The notes under the pieces are model-generated. The model worked only from the letters and a program-made list of their open reading frames with translations, was not told the DNA's origin and made no database searches. The translations under genes and the position numbers were made by a program. From Jhaorihella thermophila (lineage in GTDB: Bacteria; Pseudomonadota; Alphaproteobacteria; Rhodobacterales; Rhodobacteraceae), in contig NZ_FNVD01000004.1 of assembly GCF_900108275.1 (NCBI RefSeq), positions 1 through 64,000 on the forward strand: a stretch of 64,000 bases of DNA, in the 5' to 3' direction. Positions 24,205 through 47,466 of the stretch are shown here, in pieces; the stretch's first letter is position 1, and every line of letters starts with the position of its first letter.

Positions 24205-25709
24205 ATGCTCAAGGGCAATCACCTCATCGCCGGCGAATGGGTCGGCAGCGATGCGACCTTTGCCAACGAACCCGTATCGGGCACCCCGGACAGCTTTGCC
24301 GCCGGCACGCCCGACCATGTGGCCCGCGCGGTGCAGGCGGGGGAAGAGGCGTTCTGGTCATACGGCTGGTCCACCCGCGCCGAACGCGCCGCCTTTTTGC
24401 GCCGCATCGCCGATGAGATCGAATCCCGCGGCGCGGCGATCACCGCGCAGGGGCAGAAGGAAACCGGCCTGCCCGCCGCCCGGCTGGAAGGCGAGCGCGG
24501 GCGCACCACCGGCCAGCTGCGGCTCTTTGCCGATCATATCGAAAAGGGCGACTATCTCGACCGCCGCCACGACCCCGCGCTGCCCGACCGCCAGCCGCTG
24601 CCGCGCCCCGACCTGCGGTTGATGCAGCGCCCCGTGGGGCCGGTCGCCGTTTTTGGCGCGTCGAACTTTCCGCTCGCCTTCTCCACCGCCGGCGGGGACA
24701 CCGCATCCGCCCTTGCCGCCGGCTGCCCGGTGGTGGTGAAGGGCCATCCCGCCCATCCCGGCGTTTCCGACCTCGTCGCCCAGGCGATCGATGCGGCGCG
24801 GCGCGTCTGCGGGCTGCATCCGGGCGTCTTTTCCCAGATCCTCGGCCAGAGCCACGGGGTGGGGCAGGCGCTGGTGCAGCACCCGCTGATCCGCGCGGTT
24901 GGCTTCACCGGCTCGCTGGCCGGGGGCGGGCGCTTTTCGATCTATGCGCGGCGCGGCCCGAGCCGATCCCGTTCTTCGGCGAGCTGGGGTCGGTCAACCC
25001 CGTCTTCGTTCTCGACCATGCGCTGGCCCGTCGCGGCGGCGAGATCGCCGAAGGCTGGGCCGCCTCGCTCTCGCTGGGCGCGGGGCAGTTCTGCGCAAAT
25101 CCCGGCATCGTCATGCTGCGCGAGGGGCCGCAGGCAGAGGCCTTTATGGAGGCCGCTCGAGCCGCGCTGGCGGCGGTCGGAGTGCAGGCGATGCTGACAA
25201 GCGCCATCGCCGAAGCCTTCGCGCGCGGGCGCGACCGGCTGGCCGCGGGCGGCGGGGTGCGCGAGGTTCTGACCTCGGTGTGCAACAGGCGCGGCGCGGC
25301 GCCCTGCGTGTTCGTGACCACCGGCGCGGAGTGGCTGGCCAATGCGGAACTGGGTGAAGAGGTGTTCGGGCCGCTGGGGATCGTCGTTCTGGTGCGCGAC
25401 GGAGAGGAGCGGCTTGCGGTGGCGCGCGCGCTTCAGGGCCAGCTCACCTGCACGCTGCAAATGGACGAGGAGGACACCGCCGAGGCGCAGGCGCTGATGC
25501 CGATTCTGGAGCGCAAGGCCGGGCGGGTTCTGGCCAACGGTTTCCCCACCGGCGTGGAGGTGGCCGATGCCATGGTGCATGGGGGGCCGTATCCGGCCTC
25601 GACCAATTTCGGCCATACCTCGGTGGGTACGCTGGCCATCCGCCGCTGGCTGAGACCGGTCTGCTATCAGAACCTGCCCGAAAGTCTGCTGCCCGGAGAT
25701 CTTCGGTAA
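24205..25709 (+). pseudogene. 2-oxoglutarate semialdehyde dehydrogenase, interrupted by a one-base frameshift
   Basis: The frame from ATG at 24205 runs as an aldehyde dehydrogenase until AVGFTGSLAGG, then turns to nonsense. The family sequence resumes in the next frame (FFGELGSVNPVF with the catalytic Glu, LGAGQFCANPG with the catalytic Cys) and runs to 25709. One missing G in the G run 24922-24926 explains the switch; restoring it gives a 501-aa protein, normal for the family. It is the last step of the hydroxyproline operon, giving 2-oxoglutarate. It is either a true mutation or a homopolymer sequencing error. Confidence 0.85.
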
Positions 25710-35094: not shown

Positions 35095-36162
35095 CTACTC
35101 CCCGTTCGCGAACCTCAGCGCGATCCGGTCGGATTTCGCAACCGCCTGACAGGCCAGGACGTCGCCGCGGGCGATGTCGGCATCCTCCAGCGCCATGCGG
35201 GCGCGCATGTGAACCACTCCCTCGGTCAGCCGCGCGCGGCAGGCGCCGCAGACCCCGGACTGGCAGGCAAAGGGCGGGGTAAGTCCGGCCGCGCGGGCCG
35301 CGTCCAGGATCGTCTGGCCGGGTGCGATCGGCACGTCGCGGGTCTCGGCGCCCAGCGTGATGCGCGCGGTGGCCGAGACGCCGGGGGCGTCGTCTGCGGG
35401 CGCGGCGGCGGTGTCGCCGAAACTTTCCATATGGATACGAGTGGCCGGCACATCGAGCGCCATCAGCGCCTCGCGGACGCTGGCGTTCATGCCGCCGGGG
35501 CCGCAGATCCAATATTGGGCGTCCTGCGCCACCGGCGGCGTTTCCTCGATCGCCGTCCTTATGGCTTCGGCGTCGATCCGCCCCCGGCGCCAGGGGCTGA
35601 ACCAGCTCAGGAGCGATTGCGACGACAGCACATGGCGGAGGGTGAACCGATCGGGATGGGCCTCGGCCAGCCCGGCCAGCTCTCCGCGGAACAGGATCTC
35701 ACGCTCGGACCGATTGCCATAGAACAGATGCGCCACCGAATGCGGTTCGTTCCGCAGCATGTCATGGATCATGGCAAAGAGCGGCGTGATCCCGCTGCCG
35801 CCGGCAAAGAAGTAATGCGTGCGCCGCGCCGTGGCGCGGGGGACGAGCGTAAAGCCGCCAAAGGGGGGCATGATCTCGACCACATCGCCGGGGCGCAGGG
35901 CATCGCCGATATGGTTCGACACGATCCCGCCCTCGACCCGTTTGACGGTGATTCGCAGACACTCGCCCGGCGGATTGGAGATCGTGTAGCAGCGCCGCTG
36001 CTCGCCGCCATTCAGGTCAAGGCGCAGGGTCAGGTGCTGCCCGGCGGTCCAGCGGAAGGTTTCGGCCAGATGCGCGGGAACGTCGAAGACGACGCTGGTG
36101 GCGCGGCCGCCGATCTCGGGCTGGACGTCGGCAACGATGAGGGGGTGAAAGTCTCCGGTCAT
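35095..36162 (-). CDS. flavin/[2Fe-2S] oxygenase reductase (PaaE/GbcB-like)
   Basis: This is a 355-aa electron-transfer protein. The FAD-binding domain has RCYTISNPPG and the NAD(P)-binding domain FAGGSGITPLFAM and CGPGGMNASV; the C-terminal plant-type ferredoxin domain carries CQSGVCGACRARL plus the distant Cys in LACQAV. This order matches reductases of Rieske oxygenases such as glycine betaine or carnitine monooxygenase. It ends the minus-strand operon holding a Rieske alpha subunit and should feed that enzyme electrons. Confidence 0.9.
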   Translation of the reverse strand: MTGDFHPLIVADVQPEIGGRATSVVFDVPAHLAETFRWTAGQHLTLRLDLNGGEQRRCYTISNPPGECLRITVKRVEGGIVSNHIGDALRPGDVVEIMPPFGGFTLVPRATARRTHYFFAGGSGITPLFAMIHDMLRNEPHSVAHLFYGNRSEREILFRGELAGLAEAHPDRFTLRHVLSSQSLLSWFSPWRRGRIDAEAIRTAIEETPPVAQDAQYWICGPGGMNASVREALMALDVPATRIHMESFGDTAAAPADDAPGVSATARITLGAETRDVPIAPGQTILDAARAAGLTPPFACQSGVCGACRARLTEGVVHMRARMALEDADIARGDVLACQAVAKSDRIALRFANGE

Positions 36163-36173
36163 CGGTGTTCCTT

Positions 36174-36395
36174 TCAGGTGTAGAGAGCGAGACCACCCCA
36201 AAGGGCGGCGAGGATTGCGATGGCCAGGGCAAAGGCCCAGGCGGGCGGCGCGTAGCCGGTGAGCCACATCGTCGCGTAGTCGGCGGCCAGCCACAGGACG
36301 ATCCAGACGGCCCAGACGGCCAACGATGCGCCGGTCAGAGAGAGCCAGACGAAGCTGCCGAGAAAGGCGGCGTTCAGCAGAAGGAAGAGGATCAT
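36174..36395 (-). CDS. small membrane protein, two transmembrane segments
   Basis: This is a 73-aa hydrophobic protein beginning MILFLLLNAAFLGSFVWLSL. It has two or three membrane helices (about residues 1-20, 24-42 and 51-70) and a short loop ATMWLTGYAPPAW. It sits 11 bases before the reductase start, in the same operon. No named family is evident. A second small membrane protein is found at the other end of the operon. Confidence 0.7.
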   Translation of the reverse strand: MILFLLLNAAFLGSFVWLSLTGASLAVWAVWIVLWLAADYATMWLTGYAPPAWAFALAIAILAALWGGLALYT

Positions 36396-36402
36396 GCACG
36401 CC

Positions 36403-36882
36403 TCACCGATAGTCCATGGTGGTTTCGAGCTGGCGGATCACCCAGCGTCCGCGAAGTCGGACCAGGGTGAAACGGTCGGTCTGCACCATCTGCCCCGAAT
36501 GGCCGTTCCATTCGTATTCGACGGTGGTGACGGCGGTCGCAGCGGCCCCGTCATCGGTGATCTCGGCGTCGATCTTCGGCGCGGAGCGGGATGCCTCCGC
36601 ATACCCGTTCATGGCCTCCGCCATCTCTGGCATGTCCTTCCAGTCGGGCAGTTTCGCCCAATCCGAGACGGCATAGGAATAGGGCTCGCCGGCCTGTTGT
36701 CCGGCATACAGAATGGTGATGGAGTGGGTGGCCTCGGGGTGCCAGTCCCTCCAGTTGCCGCCGGTATCGGCTGCCGCGTAGTAGCGCCGGACCACCTCCT
36801 CGGGGGTAGCGGACGTTGCCGCATAAGCCAGCCCGGCGGCCACGATCAGGCCGGCCAGAACGGCAAGGATTCGCTGCTTCAT
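36403..36882 (-). CDS. exported NTF2-like (SnoaL-type) protein
   Basis: This is a 159-aa protein with a signal peptide or N-terminal anchor (MKQRILAVLAGLIVAAGLAYA). The mature part starts with an NTF2-fold helix (TPEEVVRRYYAAADTGGNWRDW) and ends in strands typical of the fold (QTDRFTLVRLRGRWVIRQLE, seen as RWVIRQLETTMD). No catalytic residues can be assigned. It overlaps the ABC membrane-domain gene by four bases and precedes the small membrane protein by seven, so it is part of the oxygenase operon. Confidence 0.72.
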   Translation of the reverse strand: MKQRILAVLAGLIVAAGLAYAATSATPEEVVRRYYAAADTGGNWRDWHPEATHSITILYAGQQAGEPYSYAVSDWAKLPDWKDMPEMAEAMNGYAEASRSAPKIDAEITDDGAAATAVTTVEYEWNGHSGQMVQTDRFTLVRLRGRWVIRQLETTMDYR

Positions 36883-37769
36883 CGGATGTTCCCTGGGGTG
36901 TTGATGCGCGCGGTGACTTCGCTCAGCCGCGACAGGGATTGCAGGGTCGCCGGCAGGATCAGGGCACCTTCGACGAAATCCCACGAATAGGTGACGATCG
37001 AGAACACTCTGCCGGCGGTGATCTCGATTTCGCGCGTGGCGAACCACAGGTTGAACAGGACCGAACCCAGAAGGGCGGTGAAGATCAGCCCGTAGACCAG
37101 GCCTTCGGTGTCCGAGACGCGGATTTCGCATCGACGCAGCGCCAGCAGATGCGCCCCCAGCCGGGGAATGGAGCGGCCTTCCAGAACCTGCACCTGGCGT
37201 TCGGCCTCTTCGTTGAGCGCCCGGTTGAGGCGATAGAATCGCCCATGCGCCAGGCCATAAATGGTCAGGGTGACCAGCGCGGCGGCCGCGGCCGTGCCTG
37301 CCAGCGCGGGATGAAAGCCGAACAGGATGACGACCGCCGCAAATGTCCGGAACAGGGCGGTCATGGCCTCGGGCAGTTCGGTTTCAAGAAAGTCCACCAG
37401 CTCGCGGCCCATGCCAAGGCGCGCGCTGAGCCGCGAGACCGGAAGGTCCGACGAGCGCCGGGCCAGATCCTTGCCCAGTTCAACGCGCATGACCCCATAG
37501 GCGCGCGTATCGAAAACCCGCCGCAGGGTGCCCAGCAGGATCAGCACCGCCAAGGCGACGGCAAGCTGGACGAACGCGGCCGTGTCACCGCCCGTCAGCC
37601 CGTCGATGGCCCGCCCGATCAGAAGCGGGATCAACGCGAACAACGCGATTTCCATCAGCGTCATGGCCCATGTGCCGAGGATGCGCGGCCAGAAGGCCGC
37701 GAACAGGCTGCCAAGGGTCAACGGCCGGCCCCGCAGGGGGCCGGTCCGCCGCGGCTTGCCAAGGGTCAT
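36879..37769 (-). CDS. ABC exporter-type six-helix membrane domain without ATPase
   Basis: This is a 296-aa protein resembling only the transmembrane half of a type-IV ABC exporter. It has TWAMTLMEIALFALIPLLIGRAIDGLTG at the start (seen as IPLLIGRAIDGLTG), further helices at about residues 60-85, 135-180 and 225-275, and intracellular-loop text RRSSDLPVSRLSARLGMG. No Walker A, signature or Walker B follows; the protein ends after the sixth helix. It overlaps the Rieske oxygenase gene by four bases. It may be a membrane partner or sensor rather than a pump, or may use an ATPase from elsewhere. Confidence 0.75.
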   Translation of the reverse strand: MTLGKPRRTGPLRGRPLTLGSLFAAFWPRILGTWAMTLMEIALFALIPLLIGRAIDGLTGGDTAAFVQLAVALAVLILLGTLRRVFDTRAYGVMRVELGKDLARRSSDLPVSRLSARLGMGRELVDFLETELPEAMTALFRTFAAVVILFGFHPALAGTAAAAALVTLTIYGLAHGRFYRLNRALNEEAERQVQVLEGRSIPRLGAHLLALRRCEIRVSDTEGLVYGLIFTALLGSVLFNLWFATREIEITAGRVFSIVTYSWDFVEGALILPATLQSLSRLSEVTARINTPGNIR

Positions 37770-38932
37770 TCGCCGGAAGCCTCCTGCGCGGCCATGAAGT
37801 CCAGCACCACCTGCTGGTGCATGATGATCGGGCTTTCGCCGCTGGCGGCGGGGCCGATCTCCAGATAGGGGCTGGCCAGGGATTTCTGCTGCTGCTCGCA
37901 GGCATAGACGTCTTCGGCGGTGAAATCGCCCGAGGCCATCGGGTCATCTTCGCCTGCCACGTCGTCGCCCTGATATTTCGGGCCGCCGAACTTGCGCCAG
38001 AACCCGTAGGAGGACCAGCTTTGCCGGGAGAATTCCCAGGACGAGGCATTGGCAAGCTTGGTGCGGTTCTCCACCCGCGTGAGATCCGGCGCCAGCGGGG
38101 TGACGATGAAGATGTTCCAGCTGTCCTCACTGCCCGCCAGCCCGATGCCGGGAAAGAGCATCGGCACCCAGGCGCCCACATGGGGCCTTGGGATCACCCG
38201 CGGGGTGGGCAGGTTCTTTTCCAGATCGCGGGCGTAATCTGGCGACGGTGGCTCCCAGAAATGGTAATGCGGACCCTTCTAGCCATATTCGGCGCGGGCG
38301 TGGTCATACATGTGCAGCGTGTTCGAATGCAGGTGGCTCAGGTGATAGACGTCGATGTAGTTCTCGACCACGATCTTCCAGTTGGCGCGGATCTCGTAAG
38401 TCTGCCGGGCCTCTTCGTATTCCACCAGTTCCTCTGGCCTGTGCGGTCCCAGAAGCGGATCGACAGGCCCGAACCACTCGGCGAGGCTGGGGGCAATCGG
38501 GTCGGGGTGGACGAAGATCATGCCGCGCCAGACATCGACGCTGGCGGGCCTCAGCCCCAGGCAGGACTTGTCGATCCCGTTCGGGTATTCGCGGTCCTCG
38601 TCAGGGACAGAGATCAGGTTTCCCTCGAGGTCATAGGTCCAGTCGTGATACGGGCAGGTCAGCGCCTTCTGCGTCTTGCCCACGGCGCGGATCAGCTGTG
38701 TGCCGCGATGGCGGCAGATGTTGTGAAAGGCGCGCAGGCGCCGGTCGCGGCCCATCACCACGAAGATGTTGTTCAGCCCCGCCTGGACCGAGATGTAATG
38801 ACCCGGTGCGGGGACATCCTCGGCCAGGCCGGCATAGCGCCAGCTGCGGGAAAAGATCAGCCGCTGTTCGCGGTCGAACCAGTCCTGCGAGGTATAGGCC
38901 TCGGCGGGCAGGCGGTGATACATGCGGGTCAT
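37766..38932 (-). pseudogene. Rieske aromatic/amine oxygenase alpha subunit split by an in-frame TAG
   Basis: Both halves lie in one frame. Residues 1-217 hold the Rieske site (CRH, then CPYHDW) and the mononuclear-iron motif NYIDVYHLSHLH. A TAG at 38281-38279 is codon 218. After it the frame continues KGPHYHFWEPPSPDYARD and 170 codons with normal family sequence (DVYACEQQQKSL) to 37766. One base change would restore a 388-aa protein of normal length. ATG at 38932 follows GAGG; a TTG at 38950 is an alternative. The family includes glycine betaine and carnitine monooxygenases. Confidence 0.85.
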
Positions 38933-38942
38933 GGGCAGTTCC

Positions 38943-39206
38943 TCAGACAAGCCAGGGGGCGTATTGGGGGAAGAGGCTGGCCGCGATCATCATGGCGCCG
39001 AAGAGCGCCCACAGGATCACCACGAACCAGAACAGAAACGGGTCTTCGGCGCGGTCGATCTCGAACACCAGAAAGGTCTGGCCGGATTGGACTGCCGGAA
39101 CCAGCCACCACAGGAACACCAGACCCCAGACCCAGTAGAGGCCGAACCAGGCCGCGACGAGCAGAATGGGCAGGGCAATGTAGTTGATGATCCGTTCGCG
39201 GGTCAT
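38943..39206 (-). CDS. small membrane protein, two transmembrane segments
   Basis: This is an 87-aa protein with helices at about residues 8-38 (YIALPILLVAAWFGLYWVWG) and 58-85 (FLFWFVVILWALFGAMMIAA). It overlaps the TetR gene by four bases and ends 10 bases before the Rieske oxygenase ATG, so it is translated with the oxygenase. I know no characterised homologue. Its constant position suggests a membrane anchor or substrate-access role for the oxygenase. Confidence 0.7.
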   Translation of the reverse strand: MTRERIINYIALPILLVAAWFGLYWVWGLVFLWWLVPAVQSGQTFLVFEIDRAEDPFLFWFVVILWALFGAMMIAASLFPQYAPWLV

Positions 39207-39793
39207 GTCTGACCTCCCAGACAGGTGGCAAGGGTCAGGGCGGCGGCCTTCAGATCAGTCCGCCAGGTCGCGGGCGGCGCGATGGGCTCCAGCGCGTCGA
39301 TGGTCTGAATGCAGGCGGTGATGCCATGGGCGGCGGCGCGGATGCGGTCGGGCGGGGCACCCGGATGGGCGCGGGCCAGCACCGTCTCGATGACGGCGAG
39401 GAATTCGGCATAGCTCTGCGTCAGCTTGCGGCTCAGATCGGGGTCATTCTGGGCGGCGGTGGCCAGCGCCTGCCAGGCCAGCATCAGCCGCGGGTCGTGG
39501 CCGTCGCCGCTTGCGAAAAGCGCGTCGATCAGCTCGGCCGGGGTGCCAGTGGCGGCGAAATGGGCCTCCAGCGCCTCCGTCACCTCGGCGAAGGCCGCGA
39601 TTACATGGGTCGCGAGCGCCGCGATCATGTCCTCGCGGTTGCCCAGATAGTGCCGCAGCAGCGGGCGCTTCACGCCTGCCTCGGCGGCGATGCGCTCCTG
39701 CGTCGCGCCCTCCAGTCCGAAACGGGCGACGCAAGTCAGGTAGGCGTCAAGAATTTGTCCGGACCGTTGGTCCTTCAGGCTGGGGCGTGGCAT
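39203..39793 (-). CDS. TetR family regulator of the Rieske oxygenase operon
   Basis: This is a 196-aa protein starting MPRPSLKDQRSGQILDAYL. The HTH (QERIAAEAGVKRPLLRHYLGNREDM, seen as AAEAGVKRPLLRHYLGN) lies at about residues 31-55. ATG at 39793 is chosen; an upstream ATG at 39832 would add 13 residues across the candidate operator. It is the first gene of the operon, and a perfect inverted repeat lies 15 bases upstream, so simple autorepression of the whole operon is likely. Confidence 0.88.
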   Translation of the reverse strand: MPRPSLKDQRSGQILDAYLTCVARFGLEGATQERIAAEAGVKRPLLRHYLGNREDMIAALATHVIAAFAEVTEALEAHFAATGTPAELIDALFASGDGHDPRLMLAWQALATAAQNDPDLSRKLTQSYAEFLAVIETVLARAHPGAPPDRIRAAAHGITACIQTIDALEPIAPPATWRTDLKAAALTLATCLGGQT

Positions 39794-46412: not shown

Positions 46413-46910
46413 ATGACCATTCACGAAAGGATCGCCGACGACCTCGTGGCCGCCGGGATCGGGTTCATCACCTCCGTGCCCTGCAAGCAGCTGGCCGGCG
46501 TCATCGCCGAGATCGACCGCCGGCCCGACCTGCTGCATGTTCCCTGCAATAAGGAGGACGAAGGCATGGGGCTGTGCGCCGGGGCGTGGATGGGCGGCAA
46601 AAAGCCTTGCATCATCATGCAGAACACCGCGCTGGGGGTGACGGTGAACACGCTGGCCACGCTGATCCAGTTCTACCGGATGCCGCTGCCCATGCTGATT
46701 TCCTATCGCGGAGAGCTGGGCGAGCCGGTCGCCTGCCAGGTGGAGATGGCGGTGCACACCAAGGCGCTGCTGAACCAGCTGCACATCCCCACCTACCATT
46801 TTCACCGGCAGGCGGACGTGGAGGAACTGCCGAAGATCCTCGACTACACCTTCATGTGCAACAAACCCGTGGCGATCCTGACAGATGCCAGCTTCTGGGG
46901 AGGATACTGA
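46413..46910 (+). CDS. comD: sulfopyruvate decarboxylase alpha subunit (ThDP-dependent)
   Basis: This is a 165-aa protein matching the pyrimidine-binding (N-terminal) half of a ThDP enzyme, with the activating Glu in NKEDEGMGLCAGAWMGGKKP (NKEDEG) and MQNTALGVTVNTL. A separate beta subunit follows two bases later, the split form typical of ComDE sulfopyruvate decarboxylase. This gives sulfoacetaldehyde from sulfopyruvate in cysteate, sulfolactate or DHPS breakdown. Phosphonopyruvate decarboxylase is a related alternative. No xsc or pta is in the window. Confidence 0.82.
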   Translation: MTIHERIADDLVAAGIGFITSVPCKQLAGVIAEIDRRPDLLHVPCNKEDEGMGLCAGAWMGGKKPCIIMQNTALGVTVNTLATLIQFYRMPLPMLISYRGELGEPVACQVEMAVHTKALLNQLHIPTYHFHRQADVEELPKILDYTFMCNKPVAILTDASFWGGY

Positions 46911-46911
46911 G

Positions 46912-47466
46912 ATGATCCGCGCCGACATCTTCCGCGACATCGCGCCGGTGATCCGCGACCATCTGGTGGTCTGCAACATCGGCATTCCCAGCCAGGAGCT
47001 GCACGCCATCGACGACCAGCCGACGAATTTCTACATGCTGGGGACGATGGGGCTGGCCTCGTCAATCGGCTTTGGCCTGGCGCTGGCGCAGGACAAGACG
47101 GTGATCGCCATCGACGGCGACGGGTCGGTTCTGACCAATCTCGGCACGCTGCCCACCATCGCCAACAACGACGCCGACAACTATATCCTGCTCATCATCG
47201 ACAACGGCTCCTACGGATCGACCGGGGATCAGCCGACCTATGCGGGGCGGTGCACCTCATTGGCCGAGGTGGCCGGCGCCTGCGGATGCGACCATGTGGT
47301 GGAATGCGCCGCCGAGGAGACCCGCGCGGCGCTGGAAACCGCGATCGCCGCCCGGCGCAAGACCGCGATCGTCGCGAAATGCGAAAGCGGCAACGAAAAG
47401 CATCCCGTGATCGCCATGGACCCGGTGGTGATCCGCGACCGCTTCATGAAGGCGGTCAAGGCCTGA
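46912..47466 (+). CDS. comE: sulfopyruvate decarboxylase beta subunit (ThDP-dependent)
   Basis: This is a 184-aa protein, the diphosphate-binding half of the ThDP enzyme. The cofactor motif GDGSVLTNLGTLPTIANNDADNY ends in the downstream NG element (GDG then IDNGSYGSTG, about residues 64-105). GAGGATACTGAG precedes ATG 46912. With the alpha subunit it should form the active decarboxylase. The C-terminal tail (KHPVIAMDPVVIRDRFMKAV) is typical of the family. Confidence 0.85.
   Translation: MIRADIFRDIAPVIRDHLVVCNIGIPSQELHAIDDQPTNFYMLGTMGLASSIGFGLALAQDKTVIAIDGDGSVLTNLGTLPTIANNDADNYILLIIDNGSYGSTGDQPTYAGRCTSLAEVAGACGCDHVVECAAEETRAALETAIAARRKTAIVAKCESGNEKHPVIAMDPVVIRDRFMKAVKA

Follow-up and report, generated by a model that had tools for sequence, protein, structure and literature searches.

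The operon described here occupies positions 35095-39793 on the minus strand of a 64,000-nt stretch of Jhaorihella thermophila DNA (hereafter the window), and it places the genes of a Rieske oxygenase (RO) and its reductase among genes for membrane and exported proteins. The order on the minus strand is a TetR-family regulator, an 87-aa membrane protein (M87), the RO, a six-helix ABC protein, an exported NTF2-like protein, a 73-aa membrane protein (M73) and the reductase. TetR and M87 overlap by 4 bases, as do the RO frame and the ABC gene, and the ABC and NTF2-like genes; gaps of 10 bases between M87 and RO, 7 between the NTF2-like gene and M73, and 11 between M73 and the reductase separate the others. 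The operon is one instance of an operon type that numerous marine bacteria have conserved. Its features, including an in-frame stop codon within the RO gene and an ABC protein that lacks a nucleotide-binding domain (NBD), are as follows.

39203-39793, minus strand: TetR-family regulator whose C-terminal domain is of the BetI type; it opens the operon (PF00440, TetR_N, and PF13977, TetR_C_6, both above cut-off)
38943-39206, minus strand: M87, an 87-aa membrane protein with three modelled helices and without a Pfam or NCBIfam family
38279-38932, minus strand: RO alpha subunit, N-terminal part, with the Rieske domain and two Fe-binding His (PF00355, 65.9 bits; PF00848, 37.5 bits)
38279-38281, minus strand: in-frame TAG replacing a conserved TGG (Trp), from comparison with orthologs
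37766-38278, minus strand: remaining RO frame, with the C-terminal substrate-binding part and the third metal-ligand region (PF00848, 29 bits)
36879-37769, minus strand: six-helix ABC_membrane_3 protein without an NBD, an optional accessory (PF13748, 168.8 bits against a cut-off of 27)
36403-36882, minus strand: NTF2-like protein with an apparent Sec signal peptide, an optional accessory (from the sequence and a predicted model)
36174-36395, minus strand: M73, a 73-aa hydrophobic membrane protein without a family match, a rare accessory
35095-36162, minus strand: reductase with FAD-binding, NAD-binding and C-terminal plant-type 2Fe-2S domains in a PaaE/GbcB-like architecture (PF00970, PF00175 and PF00111, all above cut-off)

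Pfam names the RO domains Rieske and Ring_hydroxyl_A and those of the reductase FAD_binding_6, NAD_binding_1 and Fer2; searches of Pfam and NCBIfam placed neither M87 nor M73 in a family, nor the NTF2-like protein on the basis of its sequence. For the reductase, the identities PaaE (291.9 of 420.8 bits) and GbcB (131.9 of 500 bits) were considered and set aside as below cut-off, the domain architecture agreeing in both cases, and the identity of the TetR protein with the choline-responsive repressor BetI was rejected on the same ground (51.5 of 201.3 bits). The NTF2-like protein starts with an apparent Sec signal peptide, MKQRILAVLAGLIVAAGLAYA/AT, and its predicted model (mean pLDDT 86) finds its nearest solved folds among NTF2/ketosteroid-isomerase-like proteins (best E 1.9e-4; Foldseek prob 1.0, TM about 0.4-0.5), in agreement with an NTF2 alpha+beta cone fold. 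An earlier sequence-only reading of this stretch had described an exported NTF2-like protein and a co-translated gene set. The first description holds. The gene order, the 4-base overlaps and the 7-11-base gaps agree with the second, with the reservation that close translational coupling of the RO to the ABC gene would require read-through of the TAG, because that stop splits the RO frame.

To place the operon among its relatives, an RO alignment was scanned against one genome per bacterial and archaeal species, which yielded 80 named loci, and linkage was counted at the 71 orthologous RO loci with enough flank, using gene calls from our own script in which exact starts are approximate. M87 lies directly upstream of the RO at 60 of the 71 loci; TetR is found at 58 and the reductase at 65, and all three occur jointly at 51. 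The insert genes are in the minority, with the NTF2-like gene at 29 loci, the ABC-like gene at 14 and M73 at 3 (L040, L048 and L064, the only places with M73 relatives). Thus, the gene set is modular, with a core of TetR, M87, RO and reductase, an optional insert of the NTF2-like and ABC genes, and M73 as a rare addition. Two Ruegeria plasmids carry the core without the insert, and Zongyanglinia marina (L053) also retains the OYE-like and LysR neighbours seen in the window; the NTF2-like gene of that locus is split. RO orthologs are present in bins of Pseudomonadota, Acidobacteriota, Chloroflexota, Poribacteria and Thermodesulfobacteriota. The expectation that the genes stay together in other genomes was therefore borne out for a modular assemblage and not for a fixed set, and because the set is conserved the observation gains interest over a lone odd operon. 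A literature search, with most subscription journals outside its reach, turned up no study of an RO accompanied by a small membrane protein from these bacteria and no description of the gene set, in agreement with the sequence-only reading, which knew of none. Two further loci, L106 and L107, have a B12-binding radical SAM gene between RO and reductase; they share the same gene order and a near-identical RO, yet their bins are labelled Alphaproteobacteria and Anaerolineae, and one bin or label is probably wrong.

The predicted model of M87 (mean pLDDT 90.4) contains three helices, at residues 3-20, 24-41 and 56-78, and so corrects the two helices first ascribed to the protein. Its conserved motif is WxWGLLFLxW...G...R.EDPxLFW...W. 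No known family for M87 was found in NCBIfam, PDB sequences or PDB folds, and DUF2542 was rejected as a chance-level Pfam match (best E 0.0054, in 5 of 31 members). A profile built from 31 relatives, mostly RO-adjacent, was searched in 385 genomes of the class and gave ten places outside the window at E <= 1e-6. Nine of these matched at E <= 1e-14 (L158-L165 and L167), and all nine adjoin an RO gene; since L158 duplicates the record of the seed L106, eight strong matches are new. Five of the eight (L159-L163) pair M87 with a second RO subfamily, whose members share 47-49% identity with the RO of L027 and 33-35% with the window RO, and at three of these five loci, as well as at G069, the gene calls give the order TetR, M87-type protein, RO without an adjoining reductase. 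The tenth match (L166) adjoins an ABC-like gene, and a phylum-wide search with the profile brought weak additions only, none adjoining an RO. An RO goes with the close relatives of M87 but not with the distant ones. TetR, M87-like and RO triples with no adjoining reductase were also seen in other Alphaproteobacteria (L168, L169 and L170). A second cluster type, with a divergent RO and an M87 relative (L027, L028, L073, L074 and L078), further contains genes named, partly from sequence appearance, as acyl-CoA ligase, GPH-type symporter, aldehyde dehydrogenase, DUF2141, DUF1800 and DUF1501; in Ruegeria it adjoins RO, ABC and reductase genes.

Because the M87 family is closely linked to ROs of at least two divergent subfamilies, the idea of a membrane-tethered RO, already raised by the sequence-only reading, gains support, the repeated linkage being observed and the docking inferred. 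We tentatively favour a two-component Rieske oxygenase, controlled by TetR, that M87 docks at the inner membrane and to which the ABC-like and NTF2-like proteins are optional additions; linkage and topology together point to the docking step, which we hold as plausible, somewhat short of probable. In such a system, the reductase would pass electrons from NAD(P)H through FAD and its 2Fe-2S centre to the Rieske cluster, a path expected from the family, and the oxygenase would insert oxygen into a small substrate, by hydroxylation or oxidative demethylation. M87 would most likely dock the RO on the inner membrane, at the substrate entry point or beside a membrane partner, and with its positive N-terminus inside, it would turn its best-conserved loop (R.EDPxLFW) to the cytoplasmic side, on which the RO is located. 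The ABC-like protein would probably act as an ATP-independent scaffold or channel, the NTF2-like protein might bind substrate or product outside the membrane, and TetR would repress the operon until a ligand appears. The broader proposition, that the M87 family consists of dedicated membrane partners for at least two RO subfamilies in several phyla, forming membrane-docked complexes to which the NBD-less ABC protein was recruited at least twice, is possible, though we do not consider it likely. M87 beside ROs across subfamilies and phyla would indicate an overlooked membrane-docked form of enzymes that are generally studied as soluble, and M87 and the RO form a directly testable pair. The alternative suggestion of a sensing-and-uptake unit found no direct support.

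Several points weigh against docking by M87. Soluble ROs need no anchor, an adjacent M87 is missing at 11 of the 71 RO loci, and weaker M87 relatives (L166, L176, L177, L178, L013 and L014) have no RO next to them, so that contexts of another kind exist in the wider superfamily. The mostly RO-adjacent seeds of the profile favour the finding of RO linkage, although seeding does not explain the second RO subfamily. Instead of docking the RO, M87 could be a small permease or, with regulation as its only tie to the operon, an independent membrane protein. The strongest competing account takes the locus for an ordinary catabolic operon, in which a soluble oxygenase and reductase are expressed under TetR. 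The M87, ABC-like and NTF2-like genes would be driven from the same promoter as genes for transport or stress whose products do not contact the oxygenase, and M87 would belong to the substrate's uptake or efflux machinery as a small component. Two-component ROs are soluble as a rule, the ABC and NTF2-like genes are optional, and many loci have separate transporters and catabolic genes nearby (TctABC with Lyase_1, TRAP, MttB and GcvT-like genes), all of which suits this account. However, the nearby transporters vary from locus to locus, whereas M87 is nearly constant and directly upstream of the RO; M87 also accompanies the divergent RO subfamily without an adjoining reductase, and it matches no known permease family or fold. 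We regard the ordinary operon as possible but not the likely explanation.

Comparison with known Rieske systems places the enzyme nearest to GbcAB, the glycine betaine monooxygenase, and CntAB, the carnitine monooxygenase, which likewise have an alpha subunit without a beta subunit and a reductase with FAD, NAD and 2Fe-2S domains. In NCBIfam the N-terminal part of the RO matches GbcA best, and CntA ranks among the best solved matches. Identity with GbcA itself (NF058607) was rejected at 130.5 of 670 bits, a score below cut-off that was obtained on the N-terminal fragment. The bridging residue is Asp in the window RO, in contrast to the Glu for which CntA is known, and we know of no membrane partner described for the GbcAB or CntAB systems. 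ROs of the naphthalene-dioxygenase type (including 3NT oxygenase, 5xbp) gave the top scores in the PDB sequence search and share the Rieske cluster and the 2-His motif; they have a beta subunit and a separate ferredoxin, neither of which is encoded in the window operon. Similarity to solved ROs covers about residues 5-226 only, and the C-terminal part of the RO had no match among them.

Clues to the substrate come from genes linked to the RO. Among them are TctABC together with a Lyase_1 enzyme, a relative of PcaB and of further fumarase/aspartase-superfamily enzymes, and, at L061 and L090, an MttB-family methyltransferase with a GcvT-like protein. The linked genes would fit methylated amines or small acids, though the neighbours vary and make this thin evidence; our guess is a methylated amine or a similar small marine metabolite. 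Homarine, taurine and glycine betaine were weighed by neighbours and habitat, and none was favoured over the others. Many record titles name invertebrate hosts (coral, sponge, ascidian and abalone), which is an impression and not a statistic. The operon occurs both in the Roseobacter group and in bins from other phyla, many of which bear host-derived names; this distribution suggests that these bacteria share a marine substrate, whose identification would be worthwhile.

The ABC-like protein is a direct member of ABC_membrane_3 (PF13748; at NCBI, 'ABC transporter six-transmembrane domain-containing protein'), and its high Pfam score agrees with its first description as a six-helix ABC transmembrane domain without an NBD. 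In the window, no NBD-like sequence occurs within some 9 kb of the gene. Scanned for Walker A together with the signature motif, none of 24 ABC loci, whether inside or outside RO operons, had an NBD within 6 kb, with short flanks at a few, and the nearest NBD motifs were at least 6.4 kb off, in other genes; an NBD encoded at an unlinked place is conceivable. Conserved linkage to an NBD gene elsewhere, which would have refuted the sequence-only reading, was thus not encountered. Family members on Pantoea, Vibrio and Priestia plasmids are likewise orphans without an NBD, but they adjoin unrelated genes, whereas the gene here sits within an oxygenase operon. The six-helix domain has a very weak profile match (E 0.009) to type IV ABC exporters, of which Sav1866 (2hyd) is an example, and differs from them by the lack of a fused or linked NBD. 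The RO-linked ABC proteins fall into two clades, with the ABC gene directly after the RO in both, and well-supported branches of the ABC tree mean that the gene switched at least twice between RO linkage and another setting. The tree would accommodate two recruitments or one recruitment followed by a later escape. With an orphan six-helix protein linked to an oxygenase in two clades, there is a way into the question of what NBD-less ABC domains do; our literature search, again with most subscription journals outside it, returned no paper on what the six-transmembrane ABC family does. A second conserved home of the orphan gene adjoins a putative O-acetylhomoserine-type sulfhydrylase, so named by sequence appearance (L031, L032 and L033). 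At L047, a match to the ABC protein lies between the RO and NTF2-like genes; gene calling passed over it, and it may be a gene remnant.

In the window itself, the RO is not one open frame, a feature that the sequence-only reading overlooked. The TAG at 38279-38281 divides codons 1-217 from 170 further codons, and its column is TGG (Trp) in 11 of 11 orthologs compared; the replaced residue, W218, is invariant in a six-sequence RO alignment. The Rieske 2Fe-2S motif CxH...CxxH is present in the window RO and invariant in orthologs, with PF00355 above cut-off, and the ortholog alignment has invariant C73, H75, C93, H96, D194, H197 and H202. The Rieske cluster, the bridging Asp and both Fe-binding His lie ahead of the TAG, and the region of the C-terminal acidic ligand lies behind it, so that the orthologs have a catalytic domain with a complete 2-His-1-carboxylate site in one frame and the window copy as assembled does not. 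A protein ending at the TAG would retain the Rieske cluster together with the bridging Asp and both His, and would lose the third metal-ligand region.

The part behind the TAG is conserved as in intact orthologs: its identity to orthologs is 76-82%, compared with 76-96% among intact orthologs over the same part, its dN and dS are in the range seen between intact orthologs, and the end branch of the window RO in the tree is short (0.054). For these reasons, the TAG would be a recent change, an assembly error or, which is unlikely, a codon that is read through. That the operon is in fact intact and working, through an assembly or sequencing error or through read-through, concerns the window copy only and is separate from the other readings; we consider it rather unlikely. 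Besides the conservation and the short branch, it draws on a second split gene in the window, of the kind that errors would produce: the aldehyde dehydrogenase at 24205-25709 (plus strand) is divided into overlapping 330- and 172-aa frames in a frameshift-like manner, which may reflect either decay or assembly errors. Yet recent inactivation accounts for the same data, the change from TGG to TAG is a single clean substitution outside any homopolymer, and a stop is also present in another RO ortholog, at about codon 290 in that of a Granulosicoccaceae bin (L083, 1278-2417). Read-through by a suppressor tRNA was rejected, as no CTA anticodon was found among 41 tRNA genes, a set that is incomplete, since it lacks a Tyr tRNA. 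An intact second RO copy was rejected too, as a genome search with an ortholog matched this single place only. The oxygenase of Jhaorihella thermophila is probably inactive through the TAG, unless the assembly is in error, and since the window copy is apparently broken and poor for study, an intact Ruegeria or Leisingera ortholog is preferable.

It is improbable that the operon modifies membrane lipids or other hydrophobic compounds, with M87 and the ABC-like protein presenting a substrate embedded in the membrane and the exported NTF2-like protein handling the product: several membrane or exported partners within one operon, and the acyl-CoA ligase, aldehyde dehydrogenase, DUF1800, DUF1501 and DUF2141 genes near the second RO subfamily, would suit such a role, but the linked catabolic genes (TctABC, Lyase_1, MttB and GcvT) indicate small polar compounds and most loci are without the ABC and NTF2-like genes, and, as solved ROs match no C-terminal substrate-binding part, sequence cannot decide the matter.

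Elsewhere in the window, at 46413-47466 (plus strand), the alpha and beta subunits of sulfopyruvate decarboxylase are encoded, both above their NCBIfam cut-offs, adjoining a universal-stress-like protein.

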